From contig JALUXU010000042.1 of NCBI GenBank assembly GCA_027013225.1, forward strand, positions 1 through 51,016: a stretch of 51,016 nt of DNA. The letters are read 5' to 3'. This DNA comes from Acidihalobacter sp. (GTDB lineage: Bacteria; Pseudomonadota; Gammaproteobacteria; DSM-5130; Acidihalobacteraceae). Numbering within the stretch: position 1 is the stretch's first letter; each line of letters begins with the position of its first letter. Both the position numbers and the translations under genes were made by a program. Below are positions 6,503-50,653 of the stretch, one piece after another. The notes under the pieces were generated by a model. The model did no database searches, was not told the DNA's origin, and saw only the letters and a list, made by a program, of their open reading frames with translations.

Positions 6503-7156
6503 TCAACCGGCGGAGCCATCCCAGCGGGCAAAATTTGCCAGCAGGCGCAGACCGGCTTCGGCGCTTTTTTCTGGATGACATTGAATGGCGAATACATTTT
6601 CGTGCGCCAAGGTGGAGCAAAAAGGCAGCACATAATTCGTGGTTCCTGCGATGAGCACATGATCCGTGGGATCGACATAGTAACTATGAACAAAATAGAA
6701 GCGGGCGCCAGATTCGATGCCTCGCCAAAGCGGATGAACTCGTGTTTGCTCCACGCGATTCCATCCCATATGAGGAATCTTGAGGCGGCTGCCGTCTCGA
6801 GGATCACGGGGAGATTCACCGAAATGGCGCACCTCGCCCGCATAGAGGCCGAGGCATTCAATGCCGCCGTTTTCCTCGCTGCGCTCCATCAGAACCTGCA
6901 TTCCCATGCACACGCCGAGGAAGGGTTTCGTTCTGAATGCCTCACGCACCGCTTCCTCGAGGCCGTGCGCCCGCAGTTCCCGCATACAGTCCCGGGCCGC
7001 GCCCTGGCCTGGGAAAATCACGCGGTCCGCGGCCAAGACAGCTTCAGGATCCGAAGTCACCAAGATACGATCTCCGGGAGGCGCGACTTGCCTCAGAGCA
7101 TTTTCTACCGAACGCAAATTACCCATTGCGTAATCAATGATTGCCAATTCAGCCAT
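6503..7156 (-). CDS. hisH: imidazole glycerol phosphate synthase glutaminase subunit HisH
   Basis: Class I glutamine amidotransferase that supplies ammonia to HisF. The 217-residue protein has the oxyanion region PGQGAARDC, the nucleophile cysteine in GVCMGMQ, and the His-Glu pair of the triad in QCHPEKS near residue 195. [10 protein letters not shown] at the N-terminus is typical. It sits 40 bases upstream of hisA and 57 bases downstream of hisB. Confidence 0.97.
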
Positions 7157-7213
7157 GCTTGCAAAACTTCAGTATTCTTCGTCGCAGAAATTTCGTGACT
7201 GCCATCCCGCACC

Positions 7214-7807
7214 TCAAAGCGCGCCCTTGGTGGAGGGAAGCTGATCCGACCCTCGCGGGTCGGGCTCCGCTGCTGCTCGCAAGGCGCGTCCTAGCGCCTT
7301 GAATACGGTTTCCGCGATATGATGGGCGTTACGGCCTCGCAGGCCATCGACATGCAGCGTCATGCGCGCATGATTGACCAGCGCCTGCAGGAATTCGTGA
7401 ATGAGATCGGTATCGAAGCCACCCACGCTGGCGCGCCGGTAATCAACTTTATGGACCAAACCGGGGCGACCGGAAAAATCGACCACCACCCGCGACAGCG
7501 CCTCGTCCAGCGGGACATAGGCGTGCCCGTAGCGGCGAATGCCTCGCTTGTCTCCCAGAGCTTCCGCCAACGCCAGTCCCATCCCGATACCGACATCCTC
7601 CACGGTGTGGTGGGCATCCACATGCAAGTCACCCTCGGCTTCGATCGTCAAATCGATCAAACCATGGCGCCCCACCTGATCGAGCATGTGATCGAAAAAC
7701 GGGATGCCCGTTGTGATGCGCGTCGTTCCCTGTCCATCGAGGTTCAACTGCACATTGACGCGGGTTTCCAGGGTCTGTCGTTTGACTGCTGCGATACGCT
7801 GGGACAT
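7214..7807 (-). CDS. hisB: imidazoleglycerol-phosphate dehydratase HisB
   Basis: Dehydrates imidazole glycerol phosphate to imidazole acetol phosphate with two bound manganese ions. The 197-residue protein is the stand-alone dehydratase, without the phosphatase domain fused to it in enterics. Metal-binding repeats are visible as [23 protein letters not shown] and [19 protein letters not shown]. The open frame extends to 7879, but the ATG at 7807 ([15 protein letters not shown]) matches the family N-terminus. First gene of the his-tat series. The 185 bases between it and fnr must hold its promoter, but I see no convincing -35/-10 pair. Confidence 0.96.
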
Positions 7808-7992
7808 GATTAAAAAACAGCTTAATTGGAGTTTGAGAATAGCATATCTGGCATCTTCTGAAAGCCATCTAGAATACAACCTGTATGGTTCTTTTATGCT
7901 TTACTTATGAGCAAGCCTGGATCATGAACGGGTGAAAAGGCGCATCAATCGCCCCATGCCAGATAAATCCCGCCTGCAACCCGCGAGATAAC

Positions 7993-8757
7993 ATGAACGA
8001 AGAGAAAGTCATCACCCTGAACAGCCTTGCCAAAGCCTGCGCCGACTGCCACCTGCAGGACGTATGTCTGCCCATAGGGATTTCCCGGAAGGATATGCAA
8101 CGGCTTGACGACATCATAAAACGCAAACGCCCACTGCCGGCTGGCCAGGCTCTCTTCCGCCAAGGAGAAGATTTTCGCGCCCTATACGCCATTCGCTCGG
8201 GTTCATTCAAAAGCGTTGTTTACGAAAATAATGGCCGAGAAAGCATTAATGCATTCCATTTCCCAGGAGAGATCCTCGGCCTTGACTCTATCAGTGAAAG
8301 AAGCTGCCCGAGCTCGGCCATCTCTCTGGAAACCAGCAGCGTGTGCGAACTTCCCTTTGAAGAGCTCGAAGAACTCGCTCAACATATTAAAGGGCTGCAA
8401 CATCAACTGCTACGCATCATGAGTCGTGAGATCAAAGCCGAGGACGCTTTCTTGCGCTCGCTTACGCATCGCAGCGCCGATCAGCGTCTTGCCAGTTTCA
8501 TCATCAACCTGGCAGAGCGCCGAGGCAACCACGGCTATTCCAACCACGAATTCAAGCTCGCCATGTCTCGTAGCGATATCGCCAATTATCTTGGCCTCGC
8601 CGTGGAAACCATAAGCCGACTTTTCACGCGTTTTCAAAACGAGGGACTACTGGAAATACGGCGAAAAAAACTCAAGATATTAAAACCGGAAGCCCTGATG
8701 GTAACGGCAAGAACCGGATCCGATAGCGACAAGCCGGATTCGAATCTGGCAAAGTAA
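7993..8757 (+). CDS. fnr: FNR-type oxygen-sensing transcription regulator
   Basis: Crp/Fnr-family regulator that switches genes for anaerobic or low-oxygen growth. The 254-residue protein has the cysteine pattern of true [4Fe-4S] FNR: C16, C19 and C25 (CADCHLQDVC) plus C118 (SSVCELPF). All are offset by exactly four residues from the E. coli cluster ligands. A cyclic-nucleotide-binding-type fold follows. Its helix-turn-helix has VETISRLFTRFQ, whose Glu, Ser and Arg are the residues that read TTGAT half-sites. Oxygen should disassemble the cluster and the dimer, as in the family. It is divergent from hisB and convergent with dtd; no target gene is adjacent. Confidence 0.93.
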   Translation: MNEEKVITLNSLAKACADCHLQDVCLPIGISRKDMQRLDDIIKRKRPLPAGQALFRQGEDFRALYAIRSGSFKSVVYENNGRESINAFHFPGEILGLDSISERSCPSSAISLETSSVCELPFEELEELAQHIKGLQHQLLRIMSREIKAEDAFLRSLTHRSADQRLASFIINLAERRGNHGYSNHEFKLAMSRSDIANYLGLAVETISRLFTRFQNEGLLEIRRKKLKILKPEALMVTARTGSDSDKPDSNLAK

Positions 8758-8809
8758 CCCGAAGAGTTCGTTTAACAGGGTGGAATCACTGTAGAGGCTG
8801 CATCCGGCA

Positions 8810-9259
8810 TCATTCCTGGGGAACCGTCCTCAGCCAGAATGTCACTGGCCCATCGTTGACCAGCTCGACCTGCATGTGCGCGCCGAAGCGGCCGCTCGCG
8901 ACGGCTGGATGCTTCCTGCGCGCCTGACGAAGAAAACCATCGAAAAGCTCACGCCCCACTTTTGGATCGGCGGCGGGCTCGAACGATGGGCGCAAACCCT
9001 TGCGCGTATCCGCAGCGAGCGTAAATTGCGGCACGATCAGCAAGTCACCGCCAACATCGGCAAGCGCGAGGTTCATTCTGCCTCGCGCATCAGGGAAAAT
9101 ACGGTATTTCAGCACCCGTTCGAGCAATTTTTCGGCTTCCCGATCGCTGTCGCCGCGCTCGATGCCCAGGAAAACCAACAGTCCGCTACTGACCCGCGCG
9201 ATGACTTCGCCCTCCACACGCACAGCGGCGCTGCTGACCCGTTGCAGCAATGCGATCAT
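8810..9259 (-). CDS. dtd: D-aminoacyl-tRNA deacylase
   Basis: Removes D-amino acids wrongly charged to tRNA. The 149-residue protein matches the family's length. The C-terminal NDGPVTFWL carries the cis-Gly-Pro motif (NxGPxT) that gives chiral selectivity. The other conserved motif, normally SQFTL, reads PQFTLAADT here. Its start overlaps the stop of pip by four bases (ATGA), so the two are co-translated in the order pip-dtd. Confidence 0.93.
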   Translation of the reverse strand: MIALLQRVSSAAVRVEGEVIARVSSGLLVFLGIERGDSDREAEKLLERVLKYRIFPDARGRMNLALADVGGDLLIVPQFTLAADTRKGLRPSFEPAADPKVGRELFDGFLRQARRKHPAVASGRFGAHMQVELVNDGPVTFWLRTVPQE

Positions 9260-37742: not shown

Positions 37743-38318
37743 ATGCACATGAACGCTGAAATGCATCTGGCCAATCACTTTTTGATCGCCATGCCACAGC
37801 TGGTTGATCCCAATTTCAATCGCACCTTGACTCTGGTTTGTGAGCATGACCGAAACGGTGCCATGGGGCTGGTCGTAAATCGCAGTCAGGAAATACGCCT
37901 GGGCCAATTGCTCGAACATGTGGGCATCCAGACGGAAATCGACTCGCTCAAGCGCCAGCCGGTATCCTCCGGAGGACCAGTGGAAAAGGAGCGTGGCTTT
38001 GTGCTTCATCGTCCTCTCGGTCAATGGGAAAGCACCCTCGCCATTAGCGACACCTTGGGACTCACCACGTCCAGAGACATTTTGGAAGCCCTGGCCCGCG
38101 GCGCGGAAAACGCGCCCACCGATGTCATGGTTCTGTTGGGATATGCCGGCTGGGCCCCCGGGCAGCTCGAAGCTGAAGTCGGCGAAAATGCCTGGCTCAC
38201 ACTCCCTGCCAGCGAGAATATCCTGTTCGACACGGCCTTGCCAGAGCGATGGCAAACGGCAGCGGCGCGCCTGGGAGTCGATCTTGGCCTACTGAGTACG
38301 GAGACGGGACATGCCTGA
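37743..38318 (+). CDS. yqgE: YqgE/AlgH family protein
   Basis: A 191-residue cytoplasmic protein of the UPF0301 (AlgH) family. Conserved blocks are NHFLIAMPQLVDPNFNRT, GAMGLVVNR, SSGGPVEKERGFVLH and MVLLGYAGWAPGQLEAE. The function is not established; in Pseudomonas a homologue affects alginate. Three in-frame ATGs (37743, 37749, 37761) compete and none has a clear ribosome site. The conserved region starts just after the third. It overlaps ruvX by eight bases, as in most gammaproteobacteria. Confidence 0.93.
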   Translation: MHMNAEMHLANHFLIAMPQLVDPNFNRTLTLVCEHDRNGAMGLVVNRSQEIRLGQLLEHVGIQTEIDSLKRQPVSSGGPVEKERGFVLHRPLGQWESTLAISDTLGLTTSRDILEALARGAENAPTDVMVLLGYAGWAPGQLEAEVGENAWLTLPASENILFDTALPERWQTAAARLGVDLGLLSTETGHA

Positions 38319-38760
38319 GCACTCACCTCTTCTGTGTTTCGATTACGGCAGCCGGCGCACCGGCGTCGCCGTGGGTCAGCGCCTCACCGCCAGCGCGCGC
38401 CCCCTCGCCACCCTGAACATGCCCAACGGCGAGATCGACTGGGTGGCGATGGATCGCCTCATCAAGACCTGGCAACCCAAGGAGTTGCTCGTTGGCCGTC
38501 CCACGCGCATGGATGGCTCGGTTGTCGCCATGACGCGCGCCGCCGAACGCTTTGCAAAGGCGCTCGCCAAACGCTATTCACTGCCGGTTTCTTTGATCGA
38601 TGAACGCCTGAGCTCAAGAGCAGCCGAAACCCTGCTGCGCGAACAATGCGCCTCGGGCCGCAAAAAACGCATCGCAAAAGATGAAGTGGATCGCTATGCC
38701 GCCGCTCTGCTGCTGGAAGACTGGCTTTCGCGTGAAACCCGTTTTGCCCCGCACCAATGA
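38311..38760 (+). CDS. ruvX: pre-16S rRNA nuclease RuvX/YqgF
   Basis: RNase H-fold nuclease, thought to trim the 5' end of 16S rRNA precursor. The 149-residue protein has the first catalytic Asp in CFDYGSRRTGVAVG, the Glu in IDERLSSRAAE and a C-terminal Asp in KDEVDRYAAALLLEDWL. The length is normal. Both ends overlap neighbours (8 bases with yqgE and 4 with pyrR), so it is embedded in the pyr transcription unit. Confidence 0.94.
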   Translation: MPEHSPLLCFDYGSRRTGVAVGQRLTASARPLATLNMPNGEIDWVAMDRLIKTWQPKELLVGRPTRMDGSVVAMTRAAERFAKALAKRYSLPVSLIDERLSSRAAETLLREQCASGRKKRIAKDEVDRYAAALLLEDWLSRETRFAPHQ

Positions 38761-39290
38761 GCGATCTTCCCAACGTTTCGCCCCTGCTCGATGAGCTCGC
38801 CCAGCGCCTGCAGGCCGAACTCGCCAAGGACGACAAGGATCCCTTGCTGGCGGGCATCCACACCGGTGGGGTCTGGATCGCCGAAGCCTTGCGGCAGCGA
38901 CTGCAAAACCCGCCGCCTTTGGGCACGTTGGACGTGAGCTATTATCGTGATGACCTCGCCCGAGGCGGTCTGCATCCCAGGCTCCACCCGACCCATTTGC
39001 CCGACGGCGTCGATGGCCGTACCATCTGGCTGATAGACGATGTGCTCCATACGGGCCGCACGGTGCGTGCCGCGATCAACGAAGTGTTCGACTTCGGGCG
39101 TCCGGCGCGAGTGCGCTTGCTGGTGCTGATCGTGCGCGCCGGCCATGAGCTTCCCATTGCAGCTGACCTCGCCGGCGCACGCATCGACGATTTGACCGAG
39201 AACGTCCGCATCCGCCTGCTTGGCCCCGATCCACTCCAGCTCGAAGTTACCTCAGCCAAAAAATCAGCCGCACGAGAGGGCATGACATGA
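38757..39290 (+). CDS. pyrR: PyrR bifunctional pyrimidine regulator / uracil phosphoribosyltransferase
   Basis: Phosphoribosyltransferase-fold protein of 177 residues. The PRPP loop is visible as [16 protein letters not shown] near 96-111. [22 protein letters not shown] and [12 protein letters not shown] agree with PyrR. In Gram-positives PyrR is an mRNA-binding attenuator; in Gram-negatives its regulatory role is less clear and it may serve as uracil phosphoribosyltransferase. I see no PyrR-type anti-antiterminator hairpin upstream of the operon. ATGA overlaps at both ends. Confidence 0.93.
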
Positions 39291-40282
39291 AAGCGCAAGC
39301 GCCCCTCCCCGGCCCCGTTCCCAACAGCATACAGATCGATAACGGTCGCTTACGCCACCTCCTCTCCATCGAAGGATTGGGGCGCGCCATGCTGGAACAG
39401 ATCCTGGACAACGCTGCCTCCTTTGCCGGCCTCAACGAACAGGGAGTGAAAAAAGTCCCCTTGTTGCGCGGCAAAACCGTGGTCAATCTGTTTTTCGAGC
39501 CGAGCACCCGAACGCGCACCACCTTCGAACTCGCCGCCAAACGCCTGTCGGCGGATGTCATGAGCGTGTCCATGAGCACCTCTTCCACCACCAAGGGTGA
39601 AACGTTGCTCGATACATTGCGCAATCTCGAGTCCATGCAATGCGATATGTTCATCGTGCGTCACAACGAAGCAGGCGCCGCTCATTTTATCGCCCGTCAT
39701 GTCGCACCCGGCATCGCCGTAATCAATGCCGGTGACGGGCGGCATGCGCATCCCACGCAGGCCCTGCTCGATATGTTCACCATCCGCCGCCACAAGGAAG
39801 ACCTGTCCCGATTGCGCGTGGCCATCGTCGGAGATGTGCTCCATTCGCGCGTGGCCCGTGCAGATATTCACGCACTCAATACCTTGGCCACTGGGGAAGT
39901 TCGTGTGATTGCACCTCGCACCCTCCTGCCCGCGGAGGCCGAGACCCTTGGCGTGCAAATTTACCATGACATGGAAACCGGCCTGCGTGATGTGGATGTG
40001 ATCATCATGTTGCGCCTGCAGAGGGAACGCATGCTCGGCGCCTTCATTCCCAGTGAACACGAATACTTCCAGCGTTTCGGCCTCACCGAAGCGCGTCTCG
40101 CCCTGGCCGCCCCTGATGCGCTGGTGATGCACCCGGGCCCGGCCAATCGGGGTGTGGAAATCGATTCGTCGGTCGCCGACGGGTCTCACTCGGTCATACT
40201 GGAACAAGTCACCAACGGCCTCGCAGTGCGAATGGCGGTCATGGCCATGGTCATGGGCGCAAATCCAAAGGGGGACGCATGA
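39287..40282 (+). CDS. pyrB: aspartate carbamoyltransferase catalytic subunit PyrB
   Basis: Second step of pyrimidine synthesis: carbamoyl phosphate plus aspartate to carbamoyl aspartate. The 331 residues contain the carbamoyl-phosphate loop [13 protein letters not shown] (69-81), the SSTTKGET loop, [14 protein letters not shown] and the aspartate-binding MLRLQRERM. It is about 20 residues longer at the N-terminus than the E. coli chain. That is typical of the class that assembles with an inactive PyrC and has no PyrI. It overlaps the next gene by four bases. Confidence 0.96.
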
Positions 40283-41568
40283 AGCGCCTATTGATCCGTG
40301 GTGGCCGTGTGATCGACCCCGCCAATGGTATCGATTGCCACGCCGATCTCGCCATCGACAATGGCCTCATCCTCGGCCTTGACCCGGTAGATTTCAAGGC
40401 GGACGAAATCATCCCCGCCGAGGGGCAGTGGATCGTGCCTGGACTCATCGATCTTGCCGCACGGCTTCGCGAACCGGGCGAAGAACACAAGGGCACAATC
40501 GCCAGCGAATGCCGGGCCGCAGCAGCAGGCGGCATCACCACCGTATGCGCCCAGCCCGATACATTGCCGCCAGTGGACACACCCGCTGATGTGCGTCTTC
40601 TGCGTCAGAAAGCCGAACAGGCCGGAGGCGCCAGAATCGCGGTTATCGCCGCGCTGACTCAAGGACTCGACGGTGAACACCTGACCGAAATGGCCGCGCT
40701 GCAGGAAGCTGGCTGCGCAGGGGTTGGTAATGCGCTGCGACCGATCAGTGATTTGCTGGTATTGCGCCGCGCCCTCGAATACGCTGCAGGCTTGGGTCTC
40801 ACAGTTTTTGCGCAGCCTTCCGACCCCAGCCTGACCCGTGGCGGCTGCGCGCACGAGGGTGCAGTCGCCACTCGCCTCGGACTGCCCGGCATACCCGTGG
40901 CCGCAGAAACCGCCGCACTCGGGCAATGGCTCGCCCTGGTAGAAGAAACCGGCGCGCGAGTCCACTTCGGCCGCCTTTCCAGCGCCGCCGGCGTGCGCAT
41001 GCTTCGCCGCGCCAAGGCAGATGGTCTGCCGGTGAGTGCCGATGTAGCCGCTCACCAGCTCTTTCTCAGCGAGATGGATATCTTCGGTTTCAATCCCCAA
41101 TGCCATATGTTGCCGCCGTTGCGCGGGGAGCGTGATCGCGATGCCTTGCGGGAAGCGCTGGCAGAAGGTGTACTCGGGGCCATTTGTTCGGATCATCAAC
41201 CCCACGAACCCGATGCCAAACTGGCGCCCTTCCCCTCGACCCAAGCAGGCATTTCCGCCCTGGAGACCCTTCTGCCGCTGGGGCTCAGACTGGTCGAAGA
41301 AGGCGTCATGCCTCTCCATGATCTTATTGCTCGCCTCACCAGCGTACCCGCGCACATTCTCAACCTGAACACTGGCCATCTGGGCGTGGGTGCCTCGGCG
41401 GATCTATGTCTCATAGATCCTGGGGCCGAGTGGGAACTGGATGCAGAGCGCCTGCAAAGCCGCGGTCGAAACACCCCTTTTCATGGCTGGCTGTTTCGCG
41501 GCCGCGTAAGCCTTACTCTGGTCGGTGGCCGGCCGGTACACGCAATGACTACAGAAGAACACCAATGA
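40279..41568 (+). CDS. pyrC': inactive dihydroorotase-like partner PyrC' (PyrX)
   Basis: A 429-residue amidohydrolase-fold protein of the dihydroorotase family. The metal-binding motif that should read DxHxHLREPG is D58-L-A60-A-R62-LREPG, so both first-strand histidines are gone. AAHQL replaces the usual paired His of a later strand, although CSDHQPH is retained. It should not be catalytic. In pseudomonads a similar PyrC' is needed to assemble active PyrB dodecamers, and this gene follows pyrB with an ATGA overlap. A working dihydroorotase must be encoded elsewhere. Confidence 0.92.
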
Positions 41569-42452
41569 ACAGCACACCTCATCGCGCCACCATTTATCTT
41601 GAAGATGCCCGCATTCTCGGTCATGAATCGCATCCCGGCGAGCAGCGCATCCTTAAACTCGAGGCGCCTAAATGCGCTCAAGCGGCGCGCCCTGGAAGCT
41701 TCGCTCATCTGCAATGCGATCCTCTCCTTCCCATGCGACGGCCTTTGTCGATCATGCGCGTCGATCCAGAGGCCGGATGGGTCGAGTTCCTCTACAAAAT
41801 CATCGGCTACGGCACCAGACTGCTCGCCCGCCGACGGCCAGGTGAAAACCTCAGCCTGCTGGGGCCGATCGGACGCCCCTTCGCGGTGCATGCCGACCGC
41901 CCGCGCGCGGTGCTGATCGGCGGCGGTGTGGGCATCCCTCCAATGATTTTTCTCGCCAATCATCTCCGTCGCCTGCCTGGCTTCAAGCCCTTGGCTATCC
42001 TCGGCTCGGAAGTGCCATTCCCCTTCATACCCCGACCTTCCCGAATTCTGGTGCCGGGCATGCCAGATGGCATCATCGCCGCCATGCCGCTATTGGAGGA
42101 CTGGCTGATACCTTCCCGACTGGCAAGCCTCCAGGGGTTCCCCGGTTGTCATGATGGCTACGTCACGGATCTGGTGGTTCGCTGGCTCGACACTTTATCG
42201 CCCCGAGAGCTGGCTGAGGTCGAATTGTTCGCCTGCGGCCCGCATCCCATGCTCGAGGCCGTCGCCCGGCTCGCACGGAAATACGATCTGCCGGCGCAAG
42301 TATCACTGGAAGAGTTCATGGCCTGCGGGGTGGGCGGCTGCGCCGGCTGCACCGTAGCCATAGAAACGGCGGATGGGCAGGCCATGAAACGGGTTTGTGT
42401 AGACGGTCCGGTTTTCGATGCCGCCACTGTCGCCGCTTTCAAACCGGCCTGA
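41565..42452 (+). CDS. PyrK-like FAD / [2Fe-2S] electron transfer protein
   Basis: A 295-residue protein of the dihydroorotate dehydrogenase electron-transfer subunit family (ferredoxin reductase-like). The FAD-binding motif is MRRPLSIMR, the NAD-binding loop IGGGVGIPPMI, and ACGPHPMLEA is a typical reductase motif. The C-terminal cluster ligands are C254, C259, C262 and C278 (CGVGGCAGC...C-VDGPVF). In Gram-positives PyrK pairs with PyrD-B, but no pyrD is in this window. The ATG at 41565 overlaps the pyrC' stop (ATGA); longer in-frame extensions would lie inside pyrC'. The acceptor or donor is unknown. Confidence 0.85.
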   Translation: MNSTPHRATIYLEDARILGHESHPGEQRILKLEAPKCAQAARPGSFAHLQCDPLLPMRRPLSIMRVDPEAGWVEFLYKIIGYGTRLLARRRPGENLSLLGPIGRPFAVHADRPRAVLIGGGVGIPPMIFLANHLRRLPGFKPLAILGSEVPFPFIPRPSRILVPGMPDGIIAAMPLLEDWLIPSRLASLQGFPGCHDGYVTDLVVRWLDTLSPRELAEVELFACGPHPMLEAVARLARKYDLPAQVSLEEFMACGVGGCAGCTVAIETADGQAMKRVCVDGPVFDAATVAAFKPA

Positions 42453-42455
42453 ACA

Positions 42456-42471
42456 CCTGCTGATCAACAGG
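42456..42471. repeat. near-perfect 16-base palindrome between convergent genes
   Basis: CCTGCTGATCAACAGG is self-complementary except for one mismatched pair. It sits in the 36 bases separating the convergent ends of the pyrK-like and hemerythrin genes. It could be part of a bidirectional terminator, although no T tract follows on either strand. Confidence 0.3.
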
Positions 42472-42488
42472 CGAACTTACCGCTATTC

Positions 42489-43055
42489 TCAAGTTTTCCG
42501 GTTCTTCAAAAGCCGGTACAGCTCGCGATATTCGGTTTCGATTTGTTCGCCGAACATCGGATCCACGCTGTTAGGCATGCGGGTGTTTACCTCGCGCCAA
42601 TCCCCGTCATCCATGGTTTTTTCCAGATACGGCAGGATTTCTCTTTCTTCCATATCCAGGTGTTCTCTCTGGCGCACTATAAAATCCTGCAAACACTCTA
42701 CAAGATGCTCACGCGGAACCGCCACGTCATGCGTGGCGGCATCAAGCATTTCAAGAACGCCTCGAGTCAACTGATGCAGGGTGGCATGTTGCGCCCGAAC
42801 ACGCTTCCACGTATCTTCCATCGCCTCTGAGAGCGCGTGCCGTTCGAGAAAAACCTCCAACATGGTTTCCTCGCGGGGATGATGAATGCGATCCGGATAG
42901 CCGGAGAAATAATCCATGATCTGTCGGACACGCTCGAGATCGACTGCGCCCTCCAGATCCTCGCGAAGTGCCGCCATGTCGCTGCTCAGCAATTCCAACA
43001 AAACCGCCATGTGACGATGGTCATCATGGATTTCCTCCAAAGGACTTTTACTCAT
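42489..43055 (-). CDS. hemerythrin HHE-domain protein
   Basis: A 188-residue helical protein with a hemerythrin-type di-iron site. Likely ligands are H13 or H15 (DDHRHM), H58/H59 and E62 (HHPREE), H90 and H94 (QHATLH), and H132 and E136 (EHLDMEE). These are spaced as in cytoplasmic HHE proteins that bind oxygen or nitric oxide, or assist iron-sulfur repair. The ATG at 43055 has AGGGAG five bases upstream. The open frame extends to 43238, but that part is not conserved. It lies 189 bases downstream of the Anbu gene on the same strand. Confidence 0.87.
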   Translation of the reverse strand: MSKSPLEEIHDDHRHMAVLLELLSSDMAALREDLEGAVDLERVRQIMDYFSGYPDRIHHPREETMLEVFLERHALSEAMEDTWKRVRAQHATLHQLTRGVLEMLDAATHDVAVPREHLVECLQDFIVRQREHLDMEEREILPYLEKTMDDGDWREVNTRMPNSVDPMFGEQIETEYRELYRLLKNRKT

Positions 43056-43244
43056 GGCGCTCCCTAGCCCGAATGCTTCATCCCGTGGCTGGTGGAATAT
43101 GAAAAGATGCTGATTAACAATACCATTCTTTGCATGCCAGCAAGTAAGAAAATGCAACCGGCCTGTAACACCGCACTCGCCCGGGGGATCCGAGGCGTCC
43201 TCAACGCCGCACTGGAGCTTCCCAAACCCCACGAGCACTTGGAG

Positions 43245-44000
43245 TCAGCAAGCGCCGCCGGACTTGAATAAGCTGGGCCACAAGGGAGGCATGTTTTTGA
43301 ATGCCTCGCGGATGTTAGCATCCCAACTCTGGCGGATTTCTCGCAAATAAGGATGATCCTCGCCCAGTACAACGCGCGGCTTAAGGCACAGGCTGTCGTT
43401 TTCATATATCTGCAATTCCACCGGCGGCCCCACGGTGACATTGCTGCGCATGGTCGAATCCATCGACACCAGCGCACAGCGGGCGGCATCCGCTAGCGAT
43501 GTGTCGGCTTGAATGATGCGATCCAGAATAGGCTTTCCGTATTTGCTTTCTCCGATCTGGAGAAAGCGCGTTGTTTTCGAGGTGGTGATGTAATTGCCCT
43601 GAGGGTAAATCAGAAATATGCCTGCTTTTTTGCCGGCAATCTGTCCCCCTAGAATAAAGCTGACCTGCGGATCGAAGCCGGCTTGCTGCCCATCATTCGC
43701 CAAATACTTACGCTGTTCTGCCAAGCTAAGCTGGCCAATGTATGCGGCTGCCTCGGGAAGATCAGGCACCGAAGCTAGCGAGGTTTCGGCCCCATCTTCC
43801 ATATCTTTTCTGATTTGCACCAGCACCGCCTGAGTGGTGCCAAGATTTCCTGCCGAAAGCAATACGAATACACGTTCCCCCGGCACGCTGAATTCATGCG
43901 TTTTGCTGTAGGTGCTTACCTGATCGACACCCGCATTCGTTCTCGAGTCGGAACAAAAAACCAAACCGTCTTTTACATCGATCGCCAAACAATAGGTCAT
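43245..44000 (-). CDS. Anbu (bacterial proteasome homologue) peptidase
   Basis: A 251-residue Ntn-hydrolase related to the 20S proteasome beta subunit and HslV. It starts MTYCLAIDVKDGLVFCSDSR-TNAGVD, the Anbu signature. Thr2 would become the N-terminal nucleophile once Met is removed, with no propeptide. The conserved acidic residue (SDSRTNAG) and downstream Lys follow, and IGESKYGKPILDR is also typical. Anbu is usually encoded with a transglutaminase-like protein, an alpha-E (DUF403) protein and an ATP-grasp protein. None is here. The natural substrate of Anbu is not known. A GGGAGGGAAG ribosome site precedes the ATG. Confidence 0.9.
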   Translation of the reverse strand: MTYCLAIDVKDGLVFCSDSRTNAGVDQVSTYSKTHEFSVPGERVFVLLSAGNLGTTQAVLVQIRKDMEDGAETSLASVPDLPEAAAYIGQLSLAEQRKYLANDGQQAGFDPQVSFILGGQIAGKKAGIFLIYPQGNYITTSKTTRFLQIGESKYGKPILDRIIQADTSLADAARCALVSMDSTMRSNVTVGPPVELQIYENDSLCLKPRVVLGEDHPYLREIRQSWDANIREAFKNMPPLWPSLFKSGGAC

Positions 44001-44175
44001 GAAATCTTCCCTCCCAGGAATCGACTGATGTTATGCGGCGCCTTCTATTCCGTCAATGCTAAGAGGTTGCAGGATTAGAAAAGTCTGCTGTGGCGATGGG
44101 GCGATGTGAAGGCGGAGCCGATTTTAGGGGCGGCAATCCGGCACGCATCTCACTAGATCTATCAAGCCGACGGAC

Positions 44176-46290
44176 TCATTGATGTTTGTGTCTGAATTCG
44201 GCGCGTACGCAATGCAATATTCCGTAAGAATACGCTTTGTCCAAGGAATCGAACACCGGCTTGAGGCGTTCATCGCCGTGCATGGCAAACGCCTGGCGAA
44301 TCGAGTCGAGTTCGACATCCTCCAAGCCGGTGGCTTCGGCCGCGCTCATCTCGCCTCGACCGATCGCGTCGGCGAAATGCTGGTAGATCGTTTCCGCACG
44401 CAAGCCGCGATGGCGAGCCACCGCTTCCACATCCATGCCTGCCCGGTACAACAACAGGCTTTCCTCCACCGTCTCAACAACAGAAACCGGATTCGCAGCG
44501 GCGGCATTACTTTTAAGTACCTCGAGAAAATCGCTGGCATAGGCTTTCAGCTTGTGTTCACCCACGCCGGGCACCCCGGCCATGTCTGCGAGCATGGCAT
44601 CACTGAAAATCATGTAAGCGGGCAGTCCTTCGGCTTCAGCCAAAACACTGCGCCTGGCACGCAGAGCCTCCCAGAGCGCGCGATCGGCCGACTTTGCAAA
44701 GCGTCGTCGTTCGCGGCGGTGGCTTTGGGCCTTGCTTCGTATGCGCTCGCGCCGCCGCAATTGCACCTTGGACTCACCGCGCAGCACCGGCCGGCTCGCT
44801 TCTGTAAGACGCAAGCCACCATGTCCTTGCAGATCGACAGCCAATAACCCCCGGGCAATCATCTGCCGGAACACCCCGCGCCAGTCTTCGGCCGGCAGCT
44901 CCTGACCGATCCCGAAAGTGGAAACCAAGTCATGGCCGAACTGCTTTATGCGCGGCTCATCCTTGCCCAGCAACACATCGATAAGATAATTCACTCCGAA
45001 GCGCTGGCCGGTGCGGTATACGCACGAAAGGGCTTTGCGCGCAGCCTCGGTGGCATCCCAGGTTGCCGGCGGCGACAGGCAGTTGTCGCAATTTCCGCAA
45101 GGCGCATCCAAAGTATCACCGAAATAGCGCAATAAGGCCTGGCGTCGGCAGGTGGTCAACTCGCAGAACCCCAGCATGGCCTCGAGCTTGTGTCGCTCTA
45201 TCCGCTTGTAGGCTTCGTCTGCTTGTGAATTATCCTGCATCTGGCGCAAGGTGATGACATCCTGCAGTCCATAGAGCATCCAGGCGTCCGCCGGCAAGCC
45301 GTCGCGTCCGGCCCGCCCGGTTTCCTGGTAATAAGCTTCCAGACTTCTGGGCAAATTGAGGTGGGCGACAAAACGCACGTCAGGCTTGTCTATACCCATA
45401 CCAAAAGCAATGGTGGCGACCACTATGACGCTCTCCTCACGCAAAAAACGTTCCTGCGTATTCATCCGCTCAGAGGCGGGCAATCCAGCGTGATAGGGCA
45501 AGGCTGTCAGTCCGCGGGCGCTCAACCAGGCGGCGGTTTCCTCGACCTTGCGCCGTGACAAACAATAGACGATGCCCGCCTCGCCCTCATGCTCCTCACG
45601 AATGAACCGCAACAACCGTTCCCGGGCGTTGCCACCCCCTTCTGCCAGCCGGTAGCGGATATTCGGACGATCGAAACCAGCGATAAAGGTATGAGCCTCA
45701 TGCAAGGCCAGCCGCTCTACGATCTCGCCACGCGTGGGTGCGTCGGCAGTCGCCGTCAATGCAATGCGCGGCACCTTGGGAAAACGTTCATGCAACCGGG
45801 AAAGCTGCATGTATTCGGGCCTGAAATCATGCCCCCACTGCGATACGCAATGCGCCTCGTCGATGGCGAACAAGGCGATCCGCGCACGTGCCAGCAACTC
45901 CAGAATTCGCGGTTGCAGCAAACGTTCCGGTGCCACGTAGAGCAGATCCAGCTCTTCTGCAAGCAACGCTTGTTCTACCTTACCGGCCGCCTCCGGCGCG
46001 AGCGTAGAGTTCAAGAAAGCCGCGCGCACACCATTTTGGCGCAAGGCCGACACTTGGTCGTGCATCAAAGCAATCAAAGGGGAAACCACGACTCCAGTGC
46101 CTGGGCGCAATAGCGCCGGAATCTGGTAGCAAACTGATTTACCGCCGCCTGTGGGCATGATAACGAGGGCATCGCCACCGGCGATCACATGGTTGATGAT
46201 TTCCGCTTGGTGTGGACGAAAGTGCGTGTATCCGAAGACCTTTTGCAGGATCTGCCGCGTGGGATCCAGGACCTCGACTTGAGTTGTCAT
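44176..46290 (-). CDS. recQ: ATP-dependent DNA helicase RecQ, long form
   Basis: 3'-5' helicase acting at stalled forks and in RecF-pathway recombination. From the ATG at 46290 it has 704 residues. Motif I is MPTGGGKS (K51), motif [20 protein letters not shown], motif [12 protein letters not shown]. The zinc site is CELTTCRRQ...PCGNCDNC. A winged helix follows, then the HRDC domain (about 500-590). An extra C-terminal helix-turn-helix-like region of roughly 100 residues ([20 protein letters not shown]) is lacking in the 609-residue E. coli enzyme. Its start overlaps the histidine kinase stop by four bases. Confidence 0.95.
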
Positions 46291-47699
46291 TTCCTGGCAG
46301 GCAATCGCGGCGAAGCGTCGCGGTTTTGCTGGCGGGCCTTGCCAACCACAGGCAATGGCAGACTCAACCGCACGCACAATCCACCGCCTTCTCGATTTTC
46401 CGCCTTGACGCTGCCGCCATGAGCCTCTACCGCACGGCGCGTGATGGCCAGTCCCAGCCCATAGCCAGATCGGGCGCCCGTTGGAGCGTCACCCGCGCGG
46501 ACAAAAGGTTCGAAGATGGCAGCGAGCTGATCCTCAGGCAAACCCGGACCACGATCACAGACGATAACTTTGAACTGGCCACTTTCACGCTCGCCCCGGA
46601 CCGTGACTTCTGCGCCTTTAGGACTGTATTTTAAGGCGTTGCGGATAACGTTCTCAAAAGCCCTTCGCAACAATTCCCGGCGTCCCTTGAGTGATCCCGA
46701 GTCACAATATTCGAGCACCACTCGGCGCTCTTCAGAAGCTTCGAAATTGGCATCATCGACCACGGTTTCGAGTAAGGCCGCCAAATCGATCCCCTCCTCC
46801 GCCTCCATACCCACGCCCGCATCAAGGCGGGCCAGCGTAAGAAGTTCACCCACCAATTGATCCAGACGCGCCGCTTCGCGCTCGATTCGCTCCAGCGCCA
46901 TCTCCAACTTATCGGGCTGTTGCCGGGCCAACGCCAGTGCCACTTGCATGCGCGCCAATGGCGAGCGCAATTCATGCGATACGTCGTGCATCAGACGCTG
47001 CTGCGTATTGACCATGTTCTCTAGTCTATCCGCCATGTAATCGAAATCATGGCCCAGATCGGCGATCTCGTCGCTGCGAACCCCCATGGCCTGAGAGACG
47101 CGGGCGCTCAGGTCTCCTGCAGCGAGGGCTTTGGCTGACCGTTGCAGAAGACGTACCGGTCGGGTGAGATACCAGGCAAGCAGCAGGCTGAAAATAAGAC
47201 TGGCGCACAATGCCACCCCCAACTGGATCAGCAAGGTATCGGCCACGGGATAACGAGAGGGGGGAAGCGGCTTGCCACCGATGTGCGCTGGAATGAACAA
47301 TAAATACACATGGCCATCGGGGGTAGCTACAAGGCGCAGTCCGCGAGGCACAGCTTTTCCGTTACTCGCCGCCAGCGCCTCACGCGCCTTGCGCAACGCT
47401 TCTGGGGGCACGGGGCGACCGAAAATGTCTTCACCCTTTGAGTTTACTGCCAACACAGGAATCCGGTACATGAGGTTTTCGTTGGCAAGCAGAACCCGCA
47501 GCGCTGACGCCCCCCCCAAACGCAAGGCCATGGCGGCTGCATTGAGCACGAATTCAGCGCGAGGCCCCCCATTGCTCAGATAGGTCAGATCCTCGAGTTG
47601 AGTCCGGTTGTATACATAGACAGCCAATCCAACTGCCGAACCAATGGCCAGCTGCATCAGCCAGAACCCTATGAAAATTTTCCAGAAAAGTCGTCCCAT
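46287..47699 (-). CDS. CpxA-type sensor histidine kinase
   Basis: A 470-residue inner-membrane kinase with one helix near the N-terminus, a periplasmic sensor of about 130 residues, a second helix (about 160-180), HAMP ([18 protein letters not shown]), and the phosphoacceptor site [15 protein letters not shown] near residue 240. An HATPase domain with [17 protein letters not shown] and GYGLGLAI follows. The order and motifs are those of CpxA/RstB-like envelope sensors; the signal is not known. ATG at 47699 overlaps the regulator stop by one base (TGATG), and its stop overlaps recQ by four. Confidence 0.9.
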
Positions 47700-48379
47700 C
47701 AATGGTGCTCTATGAACTGATATCCCACACCTCGAACCGTCTGAATGGGGGATCGGCCATCTTCGAGCGTTCCAAGTTTGCGACGAAGATTACTGATATG
47801 CACATCAACGCTTCGATCATAGCGCGCTAAAGGGTGACCCAGCGCACGCTCGGAAAGTTCATTTTTATCGACCACATGGCCGACACTGCGGACAAGAGTT
47901 TCGAGCAAATTAAATTCAGTGCTGGTCAGTGGCAATGACTCTCCTGCCCATTCGGCCAGCCGCTCTCCGGGTTTCAGGGTCAAATGACCAATCTTGATTT
48001 CCTCTCCCAAACGGGCCGAAGCCGTGCGCCTGAGAACAGCTCGCAGCCTTGCCACCAATTCACGCGGATTGCAGGGCTTGGGAAGATAATCGTCCGCTCC
48101 AAGTTCCAGTCCGACGATGCGATCTACATCGTCACCCTTTGCAGTCAGCATTACCACCGGCAGCAGTGATTGTTGCCGAATCTCTCGCAATGCATCCAGC
48201 CCGCTACGGCCGGGCATCATAATGTCCAGCACCACGGCGTCCACGTCACCACCAAGCGCAATCCTGATACCGCTCTCGGCATCGTGCTCTATGAGCACGT
48301 CGAAACCTTCTGCACGTAAATAATCACCGAGCATTTCACACAACTCGGTATCGTCATCGACCAACAACACCCGATTCAT
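47699..48379 (-). CDS. OmpR-family response regulator, CpxR type
   Basis: A 226-residue regulator. The receiver domain is intact: DDD at 8-10, phosphoacceptor Asp in VVLDIMMPGRSG near 53, Thr in MLTAKG, Lys in LPKPCNPREL. The winged-helix output domain ends in the typical SVDVHISNLRRKLG...IQTVRGVGYQF. It forms the head of the RR-HK-recQ unit. Several palindromes within 160 bases upstream are candidate control sites. Confidence 0.92.
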   Translation of the reverse strand: MNRVLLVDDDTELCEMLGDYLRAEGFDVLIEHDAESGIRIALGGDVDAVVLDIMMPGRSGLDALREIRQQSLLPVVMLTAKGDDVDRIVGLELGADDYLPKPCNPRELVARLRAVLRRTASARLGEEIKIGHLTLKPGERLAEWAGESLPLTSTEFNLLETLVRSVGHVVDKNELSERALGHPLARYDRSVDVHISNLRRKLGTLEDGRSPIQTVRGVGYQFIEHH

Positions 48380-48417
48380 ATTTCTTTCTTTGCTCCCTAT
48401 TCAATTATTCCTCTATG

Positions 48418-48473
48418 AGGCTCGCCTCTGCAGGACAACGTATGCGAGCCTGAAGGTGAAAACGCTGTTTTCA
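48418..48473 (-). promoter_or_regulatory. two adjacent inverted repeats upstream of the response regulator
   Basis: AGGCTCGC at 48418-48425 and GCGAGCCT at 48444-48451 are perfect 8-base arms with an 18-base loop. TGAAAAC at 48457-48463 and GTTTTCA at 48467-48473 are perfect 7-base arms with a three-base centre. They lie 39 to 94 bases before the regulator's start. They may be operators or a structured leader of the RR-HK-recQ mRNA. Confidence 0.4.
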
Positions 48474-48679
48474 TGCCTAAACGCATATAGCAAGCCTGAC
48501 CTTGATGCACAATCCCGGCGTCTCTTGAGTAGAATTCTACAGTCAAATCAAACCTTGCTAGAAAATGCTGCCATAGACCAGCGCTCCACATAATGTGGCA
48601 TGCTACGGTTTTACCCAGCTTTACCCGTTCGGCCCGCATCTTTGCATTGGTTCGTCCCATAATTTTCTCAACGAATCAA

Positions 48680-48952
48680 TCAACCACCGAATCCAATTTC
48701 AATCCAAAGTTTTCCCGGCGGTGCCGCGCCGCCACTCATCTCCCTCCTGAGAGCATTGGGCCCCGCAAGGGGCTTTTTTTTGCCTATAAAGCATCGATAG
48801 CTTTTCAGATTTGTGGTTATGGTTAGAGTCCTCTCCGATCCAGACATCAACCTGAAGAGCGAGGTGGCTGACGCCTGAATCGCATCGGGTTTTGCGGAGG
48901 CTGCAACACTTGAGAGAATAGAGCCAAGAACAAGCCAAGCAACTATATACAC
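48680..48952 (-). CDS. possible small exported protein, GTG start
   Basis: A 90-codon open frame starting at GTG 48952, with AAGGA six bases upstream. The first 20 residues look like a signal peptide (YIVAWLVLGSILSSVAASA, then KP). No family is recognised. Against it, the frame runs through the terminator hairpin at 48760-48781, and the last 25 residues are low in character. It may be chance or decayed sequence. Confidence 0.2.
   Translation of the reverse strand: MYIVAWLVLGSILSSVAASAKPDAIQASATSLFRLMSGSERTLTITTNLKSYRCFIGKKKPLAGPNALRREMSGGAAPPGKLWIEIGFGG
48760..48781 (+). terminator. strong intrinsic terminator without a recognised gene
   Basis: GCCCC-GCAA-GGGGC forms a stable GNRA-like tetraloop hairpin (48760-48773), followed by eight T. 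The polarity is plus strand. No plus-strand gene lies upstream, since the nearest features are the minus-strand regulator genes. It may end a small RNA made from within about 48400-48760. Confidence 0.75.
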
Positions 48953-49155: not shown

Positions 49156-50051
49156 TGACCAGGTTCAGACACATGTGAGACGTTGAAGGGATAAGGTTTT
49201 TGATGATCCGGAGGTGATTTTTCGTCTCCATCAGCTGGAGCGGTTCGAGCGGCTGCGAAAGCGGCATGGCCTGACTGTGTAGATCAGGCGGCGGAGATTC
49301 TGGGGGTGAGCCGAGCCACCCTGTACCGCTGGTGCCGGCGTCTGTCCGAGGCGGGCCCCTTGGGTCTGAGATCCCGTTCCCGCCGCCCGCGGCGTGTTCG
49401 GCGGCGGCGATGGGACGCGCGGCTGGCCGCCTGCCCGTTGCGCCGGTTCGTGGCGGCGGGCGCCGCCATGGCCGCCCCTGGCGGCGTCCCTGGGCGCGGC
49501 GCGCGCCCTATGGGCTGAAGGGCCAGGCTCCCGGAGAGCTGGTGCAGGTGGACGTCCTGCACGTGAATCTGTTGCCGGGGGTGACGGTCTACCACTTCAC
49601 CGCCTGGGACAGCGCTTCCCGCTGGCGCGTGGGGCAGGTGTACAGCCGGGTGAGCAGCCGCTGTGGGGCGGATTTTCTCAAGCCGCTTAAGGCCCGCAGC
49701 CCGTTTCCGATCCGGGCGATCCAGATCGACGGAGGATCGGAATTCAAGGGCGACTTCGAGCAGGCCTGCCAGGAAGCGGGTATCGACCTCTATGTGCTGC
49801 CGCCGAAACGGCCCCAGCGCAATGGCGGGGTGGAACGGGCCAATGGCATCTGGCGCTACGCGTTCTATGCCAGCTACCCGCTACCGACCACGATACGGGC
49901 GCTTCGTCCCCTGGTGCAATGGTGGGAACAGGTCTACAACCTGCTGCGCCCCCATCAGGCATTGAAACAGAGAACCCCAGCCGAGTATCTTCGTGAGGCC
50001 GGGTATGAGGTCCCCGAGGTCTCCGTGTCTCATATGTACTGAACCAGGACA
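49156..50051 (+). mobile_element. decayed IS481-type insertion sequence
   Basis: Imperfect terminal inverted repeats of about 25 bases bound the element: TGACCAGGTTCAGACACATG at 49156-49175 and, read inward from 50051, TGTCCTGGTTCAGTACATAT. Between them lies a broken transposase with helix-turn-helix and DDE integrase parts. The length of about 0.9 kb is short for such elements, in line with an internal deletion. I see no target duplication at the flanks. The coding part is richer in GC than its surroundings. Confidence 0.75.
49202..50042 (+). pseudogene. IS481-family transposase, frameshifted and internally deleted
   Basis: The first part (from 49202, DDPEVIFRLHQLERFERL) meets TAG at 49280. 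The reading then shifts frame into a helix-turn-helix (DQAAEILGVSRATLYRWCRRL, 49282 on) that ends at a TGA at 49516-49518. The catalytic rve domain lies in a third frame to 50042: QVDVLHV, IQIDGGSEFKGDF and RNGGVERANG give the D, D and E residues. The stretch that should join the helix-turn-helix to the catalytic domain, roughly 60 or more residues, is missing. The 236-codon open frame at 49332-50042 is therefore only a fragment. No active transposase is expected. Confidence 0.85.
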
Positions 50052-50576: not shown

Positions 50577-50653
50577 GCGCCCTTAGCTCAGCTGGATAGA
50601 GCGCAGCCCTCCGGAGGCTGAGGCCAGAGGTTCGAATCCTCTAGGGCGCGCCA
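50577..50653 (+). tRNA. tRNA-Arg (anticodon CCG)
   Basis: A 77-base tRNA with CCA encoded. Acceptor arms GCGCCCT and AGGGCGC pair fully. The D arm is GCTC/GAGC, the anticodon stem CAGCC/GGCTG with loop CTCCGGA (anticodon CCG, reading CGG), and the T arm AGAGG/CCTCT with loop TTCGAAT. The sequence agrees closely with the E. coli tRNA for the same codon as I recall it. No partial repeat of its 3' end is visible before the window edge. Confidence 0.97.

Follow-up and report, generated by a model that had tools for sequence, protein, structure and literature searches.

A single, unlinked Anbu peptidase gene in Acidihalobacter and its likely origin by replacement of a native copy

Introduction

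Anbu belongs to the same proteasome-like family as HslV, and the accessible sections of PMC8665760 give it no known function. Its gene is found in an operon with genes for a circularly permuted ATP-grasp protein (CP-ATP-grasp), an Alpha-E protein and a transglutaminase, "frequently" according to the accessible part of PMC5666114 and "predominantly" according to that of PMC6376114. In the same portions of these two papers, the candidate catalytic residues are Thr1, Asp17 and Lys32(33) (PMC6376114), epoxomicin was bound at Thr1 of Pa-Anbu (PMC5666114), the ATP-grasp partner releases phosphate from ATP, and Anbu proteins displayed no peptidase activity on standard substrates (PMC6376114; PMC5666114). 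Co-expression and pull-down of Yersinia bercovieri Anbu with the operon proteins gave no specific interaction, as far as the accessible text of PMC6376114 goes. The rlo operon, in the available part of PMC12239564, is a different ATP-grasp/transglutaminase operon and was set aside.

The window analyzed here, 51,016 nucleotides in length, is contig C42 of an Acidihalobacter genome (G000, assembly GCA_027013225.1; 2.27 Mb in 73 contigs, 99.97% complete) and carries an Anbu gene that the initial annotation described as an orphan without its usual partners. At the locus the description holds, since no partner gene stands beside the window Anbu; at the level of the genome it does not, since every partner family of the Anbu operon is present on another contig, C5, and a true orphan without partners in its genome is ruled out. 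Judged from gene content and phylogeny, it is quite probable that the sole Anbu of this genome is the peptidase arm of the known Anbu/CP-ATP-grasp/Alpha-E/transglutaminase system, acting in trans, with the native copy replaced by a foreign one.

The window Anbu gene

The protein encoded in the window is an ordinary Anbu. Its open frame fills its interval exactly, on the minus strand, a point absent from the initial annotation; it starts at an ATG (N-terminus MTYC), and the plus strand of that interval, read in the same frame, has 4 stops. In a phmmer search of the PDB, five distinct sequences matched at E ≤ 0.001 (E from 8e-57 to 1.2e-75), three of them labeled Anbu and two "Peptidase": the best match was 5loy, a "Designed Anbu Protein" (1.2e-75), and the others were 5nyw ("Peptidase", 3.7e-63), which we take to be the Y. 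bercovieri Anbu, 5lox ("Peptidase", 1.6e-62), presumably from P. aeruginosa, and 5nyj and 5nyf (both "Anbu"). Similarity to these solved relatives runs the full length of the protein, with the alignment to 5loy reaching residue 241. The entry 5lox is named Anbu in the accessible part of PMC8665760. The match to the Pfam Proteasome model (PF00227) exceeds the gathering score, and no NCBIfam model matched at E ≤ 0.001, so that TIGR03692 (HslV) is among the unmatched; HslV is encoded separately in the genome, on contig C67, where TIGR03692 is over its cut-off.

Thr2 directly follows the initiator Met, with no propeptide, and is Thr1 once Met is removed. Asp17 and Lys32 are in place as well. In an alignment of 118 Anbu rows, all have D17 and K32, and 117 have T1. 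These residues, together with the PDB and Pfam matches, confirm the initial annotation in its identification of Anbu, of the Thr2 nucleophile and of intact signature motifs. The S1-pocket residues read from the alignment, T20/Y30/S48/L52, are close to those of Pa-Anbu (T20/F30/T48/L52) at the four positions compared; the basic S1 pocket of Anbu-2 is not seen, and the pocket is of the Anbu-1 kind. Position 53 is Gly, a residue found in 10 of the 118 rows, with Ala in 107. Between the window genome and G001, a second species of the genus, dN/dS of Anbu is ~0.06 at a saturated dS of 2.2, which shows purifying selection; the values for the same species pair are 0.07 for the kinase, 0.05 for the regulator, 0.10 for RecQ, 0.09 for ATP-grasp, 0.17 for Alpha-E and 0.24 for the hemerythrin. 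The window Anbu is therefore under constraint and probably in use.

The flanking genes named in the initial annotation, a hemerythrin gene and recQ, were found where it placed them (Table 1). RecQ follows a CpxRA-like two-component pair, and its true start is probably near 46290, by inspection. A consensus scan returned 8 promoter-like matches in 42300-48800 against 3.6 expected and, in the recQ-Anbu gap, no terminator-like site. This gap, 175 bp in the window, is 76 bp in G001; the shortness of both gaps and the lack of a terminator-like match in the window make co-transcription of recQ and Anbu possible as a prediction. Near the contig end and a tRNA gene (50577-50650), an integrase-core (rve) frame at 49332-50042 is probably an IS remnant. 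The gene order at 37743-42452 resembles what is presumably YqgE-YqgF-PyrR-PyrB-PyrC followed by a ferredoxin-reductase-like (PyrK-like) gene.

Table 1. Features of the Anbu locus (window) and of the partner locus (contig C5)
Feature	Location	Strand	Remarks
Hemerythrin-domain protein, 188 aa	window 42489..43055	-	PF01814; 189 bp downstream of Anbu
Anbu peptidase, 251 aa, Anbu-1-like	window 43245..44000	-	Thr1/Asp17/Lys32 intact; sole copy found in genome
recQ-Anbu intergenic gap, 175 bp	window 44001..44175	-	Weak promoter-like match at 44056-44028 (consensus scan)
RecQ helicase	window 44176..46377	-	TIGR01389 above cut-off; co-directional with and upstream of Anbu
CpxA-like sensor histidine kinase	window 46287..47702	-	CpxA is the top NCBIfam match but scores under its cut-off
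CpxR-like response regulator	window 47699..48379	-	CpxR is the top NCBIfam match but scores under its cut-off
Small transglutaminase-like gene (Bact_transglu_N)	C5:6752-6985	-	Domain search
Fused CP-ATP-grasp/Alpha-E, 801 aa	C5:7009-9414	-	Pfam CP_ATPgrasp_2 and Alpha-E
Transglutaminase-DUF2126 protein, 1143 aa	C5:9411-12842	-	Pfam DUF2126, Bact_transglu_N and Transglut_core
CP-ATP-grasp	C5:12977-14482	+	Pfam CP_ATPgrasp_2; divergent from transglutaminase-DUF2126 gene
Alpha-E	C5:14485-15471	+	Pfam Alpha-E
Alpha-E domain matches	C5:14485-15402 and 7042-7908		
CP-ATP-grasp domain matches	C5:13268-14398 and 8038-9144		
Bact_transglu_N domain matches	C5:12546-12779 and 6752-6985		

The partner set on contig C5

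The initial annotation had allowed for partner genes at another site of the genome, and domain searches located such a set on C5, where Pfam confirmed the domains of four partner proteins; NCBIfam models gave no match for the five partner proteins tested. In contrast to the operon, linkage is absent: Anbu is on C42 and its partners are on C5. The cluster itself is rearranged. In the sister genus, Anbu is divergent to ATP-grasp; on C5 the transglutaminase-DUF2126 gene takes that place and is followed by the fused ATP-grasp/Alpha-E gene and then by the small transglutaminase-like gene. An S41 peptidase gene comes after the Alpha-E gene, and a frame adjoining the remodeled cluster (5418-6008 of C5, locus L148) resembles what we take to be an ISL3-type transposase fragment. 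A complete cluster accompanied by a second Anbu would, according to the initial annotation, have marked the window gene as a redundant paralogue; the cluster is present, but Anbu matches G000 only once, and a redundant second copy is ruled out.

That the C5 cluster is contamination, an artefact of assembly or binning, is exceedingly improbable. The window has 57.6% GC and C5:1-20000 has 62.7%, a difference that would fit a foreign contig, but the listed contamination of G000 is 0.03%, and the single-contig genome G001 has the same cluster (64.6% GC), with an ATP-grasp 86-87% identical and a fused second set 60% identical to those on C5. Contamination as the source of the cluster was rejected on these grounds.

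Relatives and origin of the unlinked gene

G001, a single contig of 3.45 Mb, is the sole congener found, and the genus is thus sampled by two genomes. Its Anbu, at 3107699, is 81% identical to that of the window and stands in the same co-directional order of response regulator, histidine kinase, RecQ and Anbu. The G001 partner cluster, fused set included, lies at 381-390 kb, 2.7 Mb from Anbu in linear distance, or ~0.7 Mb on a circular contig, and Anbu is unlinked in both species. In all three genomes of the sister genus (G002, G003, G004), Anbu adjoins and is divergent from the ATP-grasp gene, in company with Alpha-E and a large transglutaminase. A Peptidase_Mx / zinc-ribbon gene adjoins the linked Anbu of G002 (L151:8512-9639; Pfam), frames 75-83% identical to it are present in G003 and G004, and the surroundings of the window Anbu gave no match to such a frame.

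ATP-grasp is 83% identical between the two genera and Anbu 52-54%, and the trees of the two proteins conflict. In a pair of trees built on the 37 taxa for which Anbu, an unfused ATP-grasp and Alpha-E were all in hand, ATP-grasp united both genera with support of 99/98 (bootstrap not fully settled), and Anbu rejected their union (p-AU 0.001). In a 53-row Anbu tree, a chosen part of 118 rows from which L166, L167, L168, L172 and L177 were left out, the union costs 46.5 log units (p-AU 0.000475); the two-genus grouping for the AU tests was chosen after identity values and the quick tree had been seen. There the genus falls apart from its sister genus, within a 19-row clade (100/99) that holds Thioalkalivibrio, a Thiothrix and others; the corresponding 23-row group of the quick 118-row tree, with its weak backbone, had only 92 SH-aLRT. 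A search of two cluster loci returned no convincing Anbu remnant (best E 0.029). The tree conflict and the lack of a convincing remnant in these loci are read as xenologous replacement: the likely history is that the native linked Anbu was lost and a foreign Anbu was fixed at a new site. The native gene, divergent beside the ATP-grasp gene as in the sister genus, would have been lost from the cluster in this genus, and the Anbu of another gammaproteobacterial lineage would have been installed next to recQ, downstream of the CpxRA-like pair. Base composition gave no clear sign of transfer.

Vertical inheritance could also have left Anbu at its present site, if the native gene had moved within the genome and then evolved rapidly outside the cluster. 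Both species share the new site by recQ, the histidine kinase and the response regulator, and in one relative, G003, recQ and the linked Anbu are near neighbors, ~3.5 kb apart. Relocation is nevertheless quite unlikely, since the union of the two genera was rejected in both AU tests, since the window Anbu shares 54% identity with its sister-genus counterpart as against 60-62% with that of Thioalkalivibrio, and since neither the 53-row nor the 37-taxon Anbu tree had an end branch marked as long. The same tree conflict would arise if an ancestor of the family had two Anbu genes, of which this genus kept the unlinked and the sister genus the linked one. Two Anbu genes do occur in class genomes, namely G088, G105 and G270, and also G144 and G199, where the second copy has a stop; within the family (f1), however, none of the five genomes examined carries two, and the scheme needs at least two losses, which makes ancient paralogy unlikely.

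Unlinked Anbu genes in the class

Among 369 sampled genomes of the class, Anbu is present in 87 and CP-ATP-grasp (PF14403) in 107: both genes in 82, Anbu alone in 5 and ATP-grasp alone in 25. ATP-grasp thus accompanies Anbu in 82 of 87 genomes, as compared with 25 of the 282 others (Fisher p 1e-52, kinship uncorrected). The survey excluded four further Anbu fragments, from G177 and G157, and minor additional ATP-grasp pieces in G037, G085, G288 and G305, which leaves the genome counts the same; one of the G157 fragments is ~4 kb from its ATP-grasp gene, and G157 may once have been linked. The two genes are at most 12 kb apart in 60 of the 82 genomes with both, 0.27-2.7 Mb apart on one contig in 6 (linear distance) and on different contigs in 16. 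Six of these 16 (G000, G154, G180, G235, G254, G307) have at least 7 kb on either side of Anbu; the flanks in G180, 7.8 and 10.3 kb, are under 12 kb. Taken together, the six distant same-contig cases and the six well-flanked ones give 12 genomes in 9 families in which Anbu appears unlinked, a state confirmed by a congener for G000 (G001) and G154 (G265). The other ten different-contig cases may be linked or unlinked, and one of them, G037, has a transglutaminase domain beside Anbu.

A second scan covered the best 80 of 301 confirmed, named Anbu loci, a list from which the genus itself is absent; partner queries came from the window genome, and ATP-grasp matches below 50% identity were not counted. 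Neither ATP-grasp nor Alpha-E was seen in the fetched stretch at 14 of these loci, four of which (L076, L089, L099, L125) were flanked by 10 kb in each direction. The unlinked arrangement recurs in the class, and for this genus there is a good case for replacement. No title among the matches listed in a literature search concerned a trans-encoded or replaced Anbu; Iyer 2009 and Valas and Bourne 2008, reportedly the first descriptions of Anbu gene context, were outside that search. Since the operon is described as occurring "frequently" and "predominantly", unlinked copies do not contradict the accessible parts of PMC5666114 and PMC6376114.

Anbu without partners

None of the five Anbu-only genomes has an Alpha-E match (PF04168). 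One of them, G074, is 78% complete, and in another, G349, Anbu is at a contig end. In G276, listed as 100% complete, Anbu is intact at 246 aa (L187:6035-6775, contig C88), with T1, D17 and K32 present, and the genome matches neither PF14403 nor PF04168; whether Anbu has an independent role would be better tested on this gene than on that of the window. Two partnerless genomes of one genus, G026 (L157:9274-9648) and G173 (L188:5641-6144), have a shortened Anbu in which position 17, read from the alignment, is Asn rather than Asp, probably a shared decayed relic. One genus thus shows decay of a partnerless Anbu, but the intact partnerless Anbu of G276 goes against a strict dependence of Anbu on its partners.

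Hemerythrin and the CpxRA-like/RecQ neighborhood

The initial annotation had raised the adjacency of Anbu and hemerythrin as a point to survey. A general link is not supported: of 27 chosen genomes, the two that belong to this genus are the ones with a hemerythrin domain 10 kb or less from Anbu, and in G001, whose hemerythrin is 50% identical to that of the window, an amino-acid permease gene intervenes. The 27 comprise this genus, the sister genus and the unlinked or partnerless cases; two of them lack any hemerythrin match, and several have Anbu on short contigs with neighbors invisible. The nearest other hemerythrin on a shared contig, in G111, is ~45 kb from Anbu. In tblastn searches of the best 80 of 301 named loci, many with short flanks and open to missing a divergent hemerythrin, the window hemerythrin and RecQ had 0/80 matches each above 60 bits. 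A general Anbu-hemerythrin pair was rejected on the 2/27 result. RecQ is otherwise near Anbu in G003 and, ~6 kb away, beside the relic of G026; both are treated as chance.

It remains to weigh a function independent of the cluster, in which Anbu would dispense with the amidoligase cluster and serve either in a CpxRA-like/RecQ stress unit or alongside the hemerythrin under oxidative or nitrosative stress. The co-directional run from response regulator to Anbu in both species, the recQ-Anbu gap free of terminator-like sites and the intact Anbu of G276 speak for it, but both species of the genus retain the partner set, the hemerythrin association is confined to this genus among the chosen genomes, and, in work cited in the accessible part of PMC5666114, expression of the operon genes was unchanged under nitrosative stress. 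The initial annotation's proposal of such a function finds no direct support for the window gene, in a class where 82 of 87 sampled Anbu genomes carry CP-ATP-grasp, and is very unlikely. A related reading combines replacement with a change of role: the foreign Anbu might have come under the control of a CpxRA-like/RecQ stress transcription unit, with a substrate of its own, and the amidoligase cluster might have switched to the fused set, which is more frequent where Anbu is lacking. Little credence is given to this; if true, Anbu and the amidoligase system would be separable.

Anbu and its partners in trans

The best reading of the sequence data is that Anbu probably works in trans with the known amidoligase/transglutaminase system. 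The ATP-grasp, Alpha-E, DUF2126 and transglutaminase proteins would make new amide bonds in a peptide or protein, or rearrange existing ones; Met removal would expose Thr1 of Anbu, which, in an open split-ring particle, would hydrolyze the product of the partner enzymes. The null interaction of Y. bercovieri Anbu and the lack of peptidase activity, as given in the accessible parts of PMC6376114 and PMC5666114, count against Anbu acting with the C5 genes.

Retention of the partner set through the exchange of Anbu suggests shared substrates, not a tight physical interface. If true, the passage from a native to a foreign Anbu with the partners kept would be a natural swap experiment, and it points to an Anbu that depends on the partner pathway but requires neither close linkage nor a finely co-evolved interface. 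The latter agrees with the failed interaction search in Y. bercovieri (PMC6376114, accessible part). The window Anbu is best seen not as a new system but as a displaced member of one that is known, though poorly understood, and this genus, with Anbu encoded in trans, can be set beside the intact, partnerless Anbu of G276 and the decayed ones of the partnerless genus of G026 and G173.

The fused ATP-grasp/Alpha-E set

The fused CP-ATP-grasp/Alpha-E gene of C5 (7009-9414 of L148) has counterparts in 28 other genomes of the class. A set was scored as fused when its ATP-grasp had the lower score and lay in an open frame of ~800 aa or more; Alpha-E was seen in the same frame for six fused-set genomes and by Pfam for G000, and the long frames of G261 (C5:21582) and G088 were counted as unfused. 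As a weak trend, unlinked Anbu genes are found in 8 of 17 genomes with a fused set and in 14 of the 65 others (Fisher p 0.06, kinship uncorrected, contig-edge cases taken as unlinked). The fused set is present in 12 of the 25 ATP-grasp genomes without Anbu as against 17 of the 82 with it (Fisher p 0.011, kinship uncorrected), a skew that hints at a form of the system able to do without Anbu.
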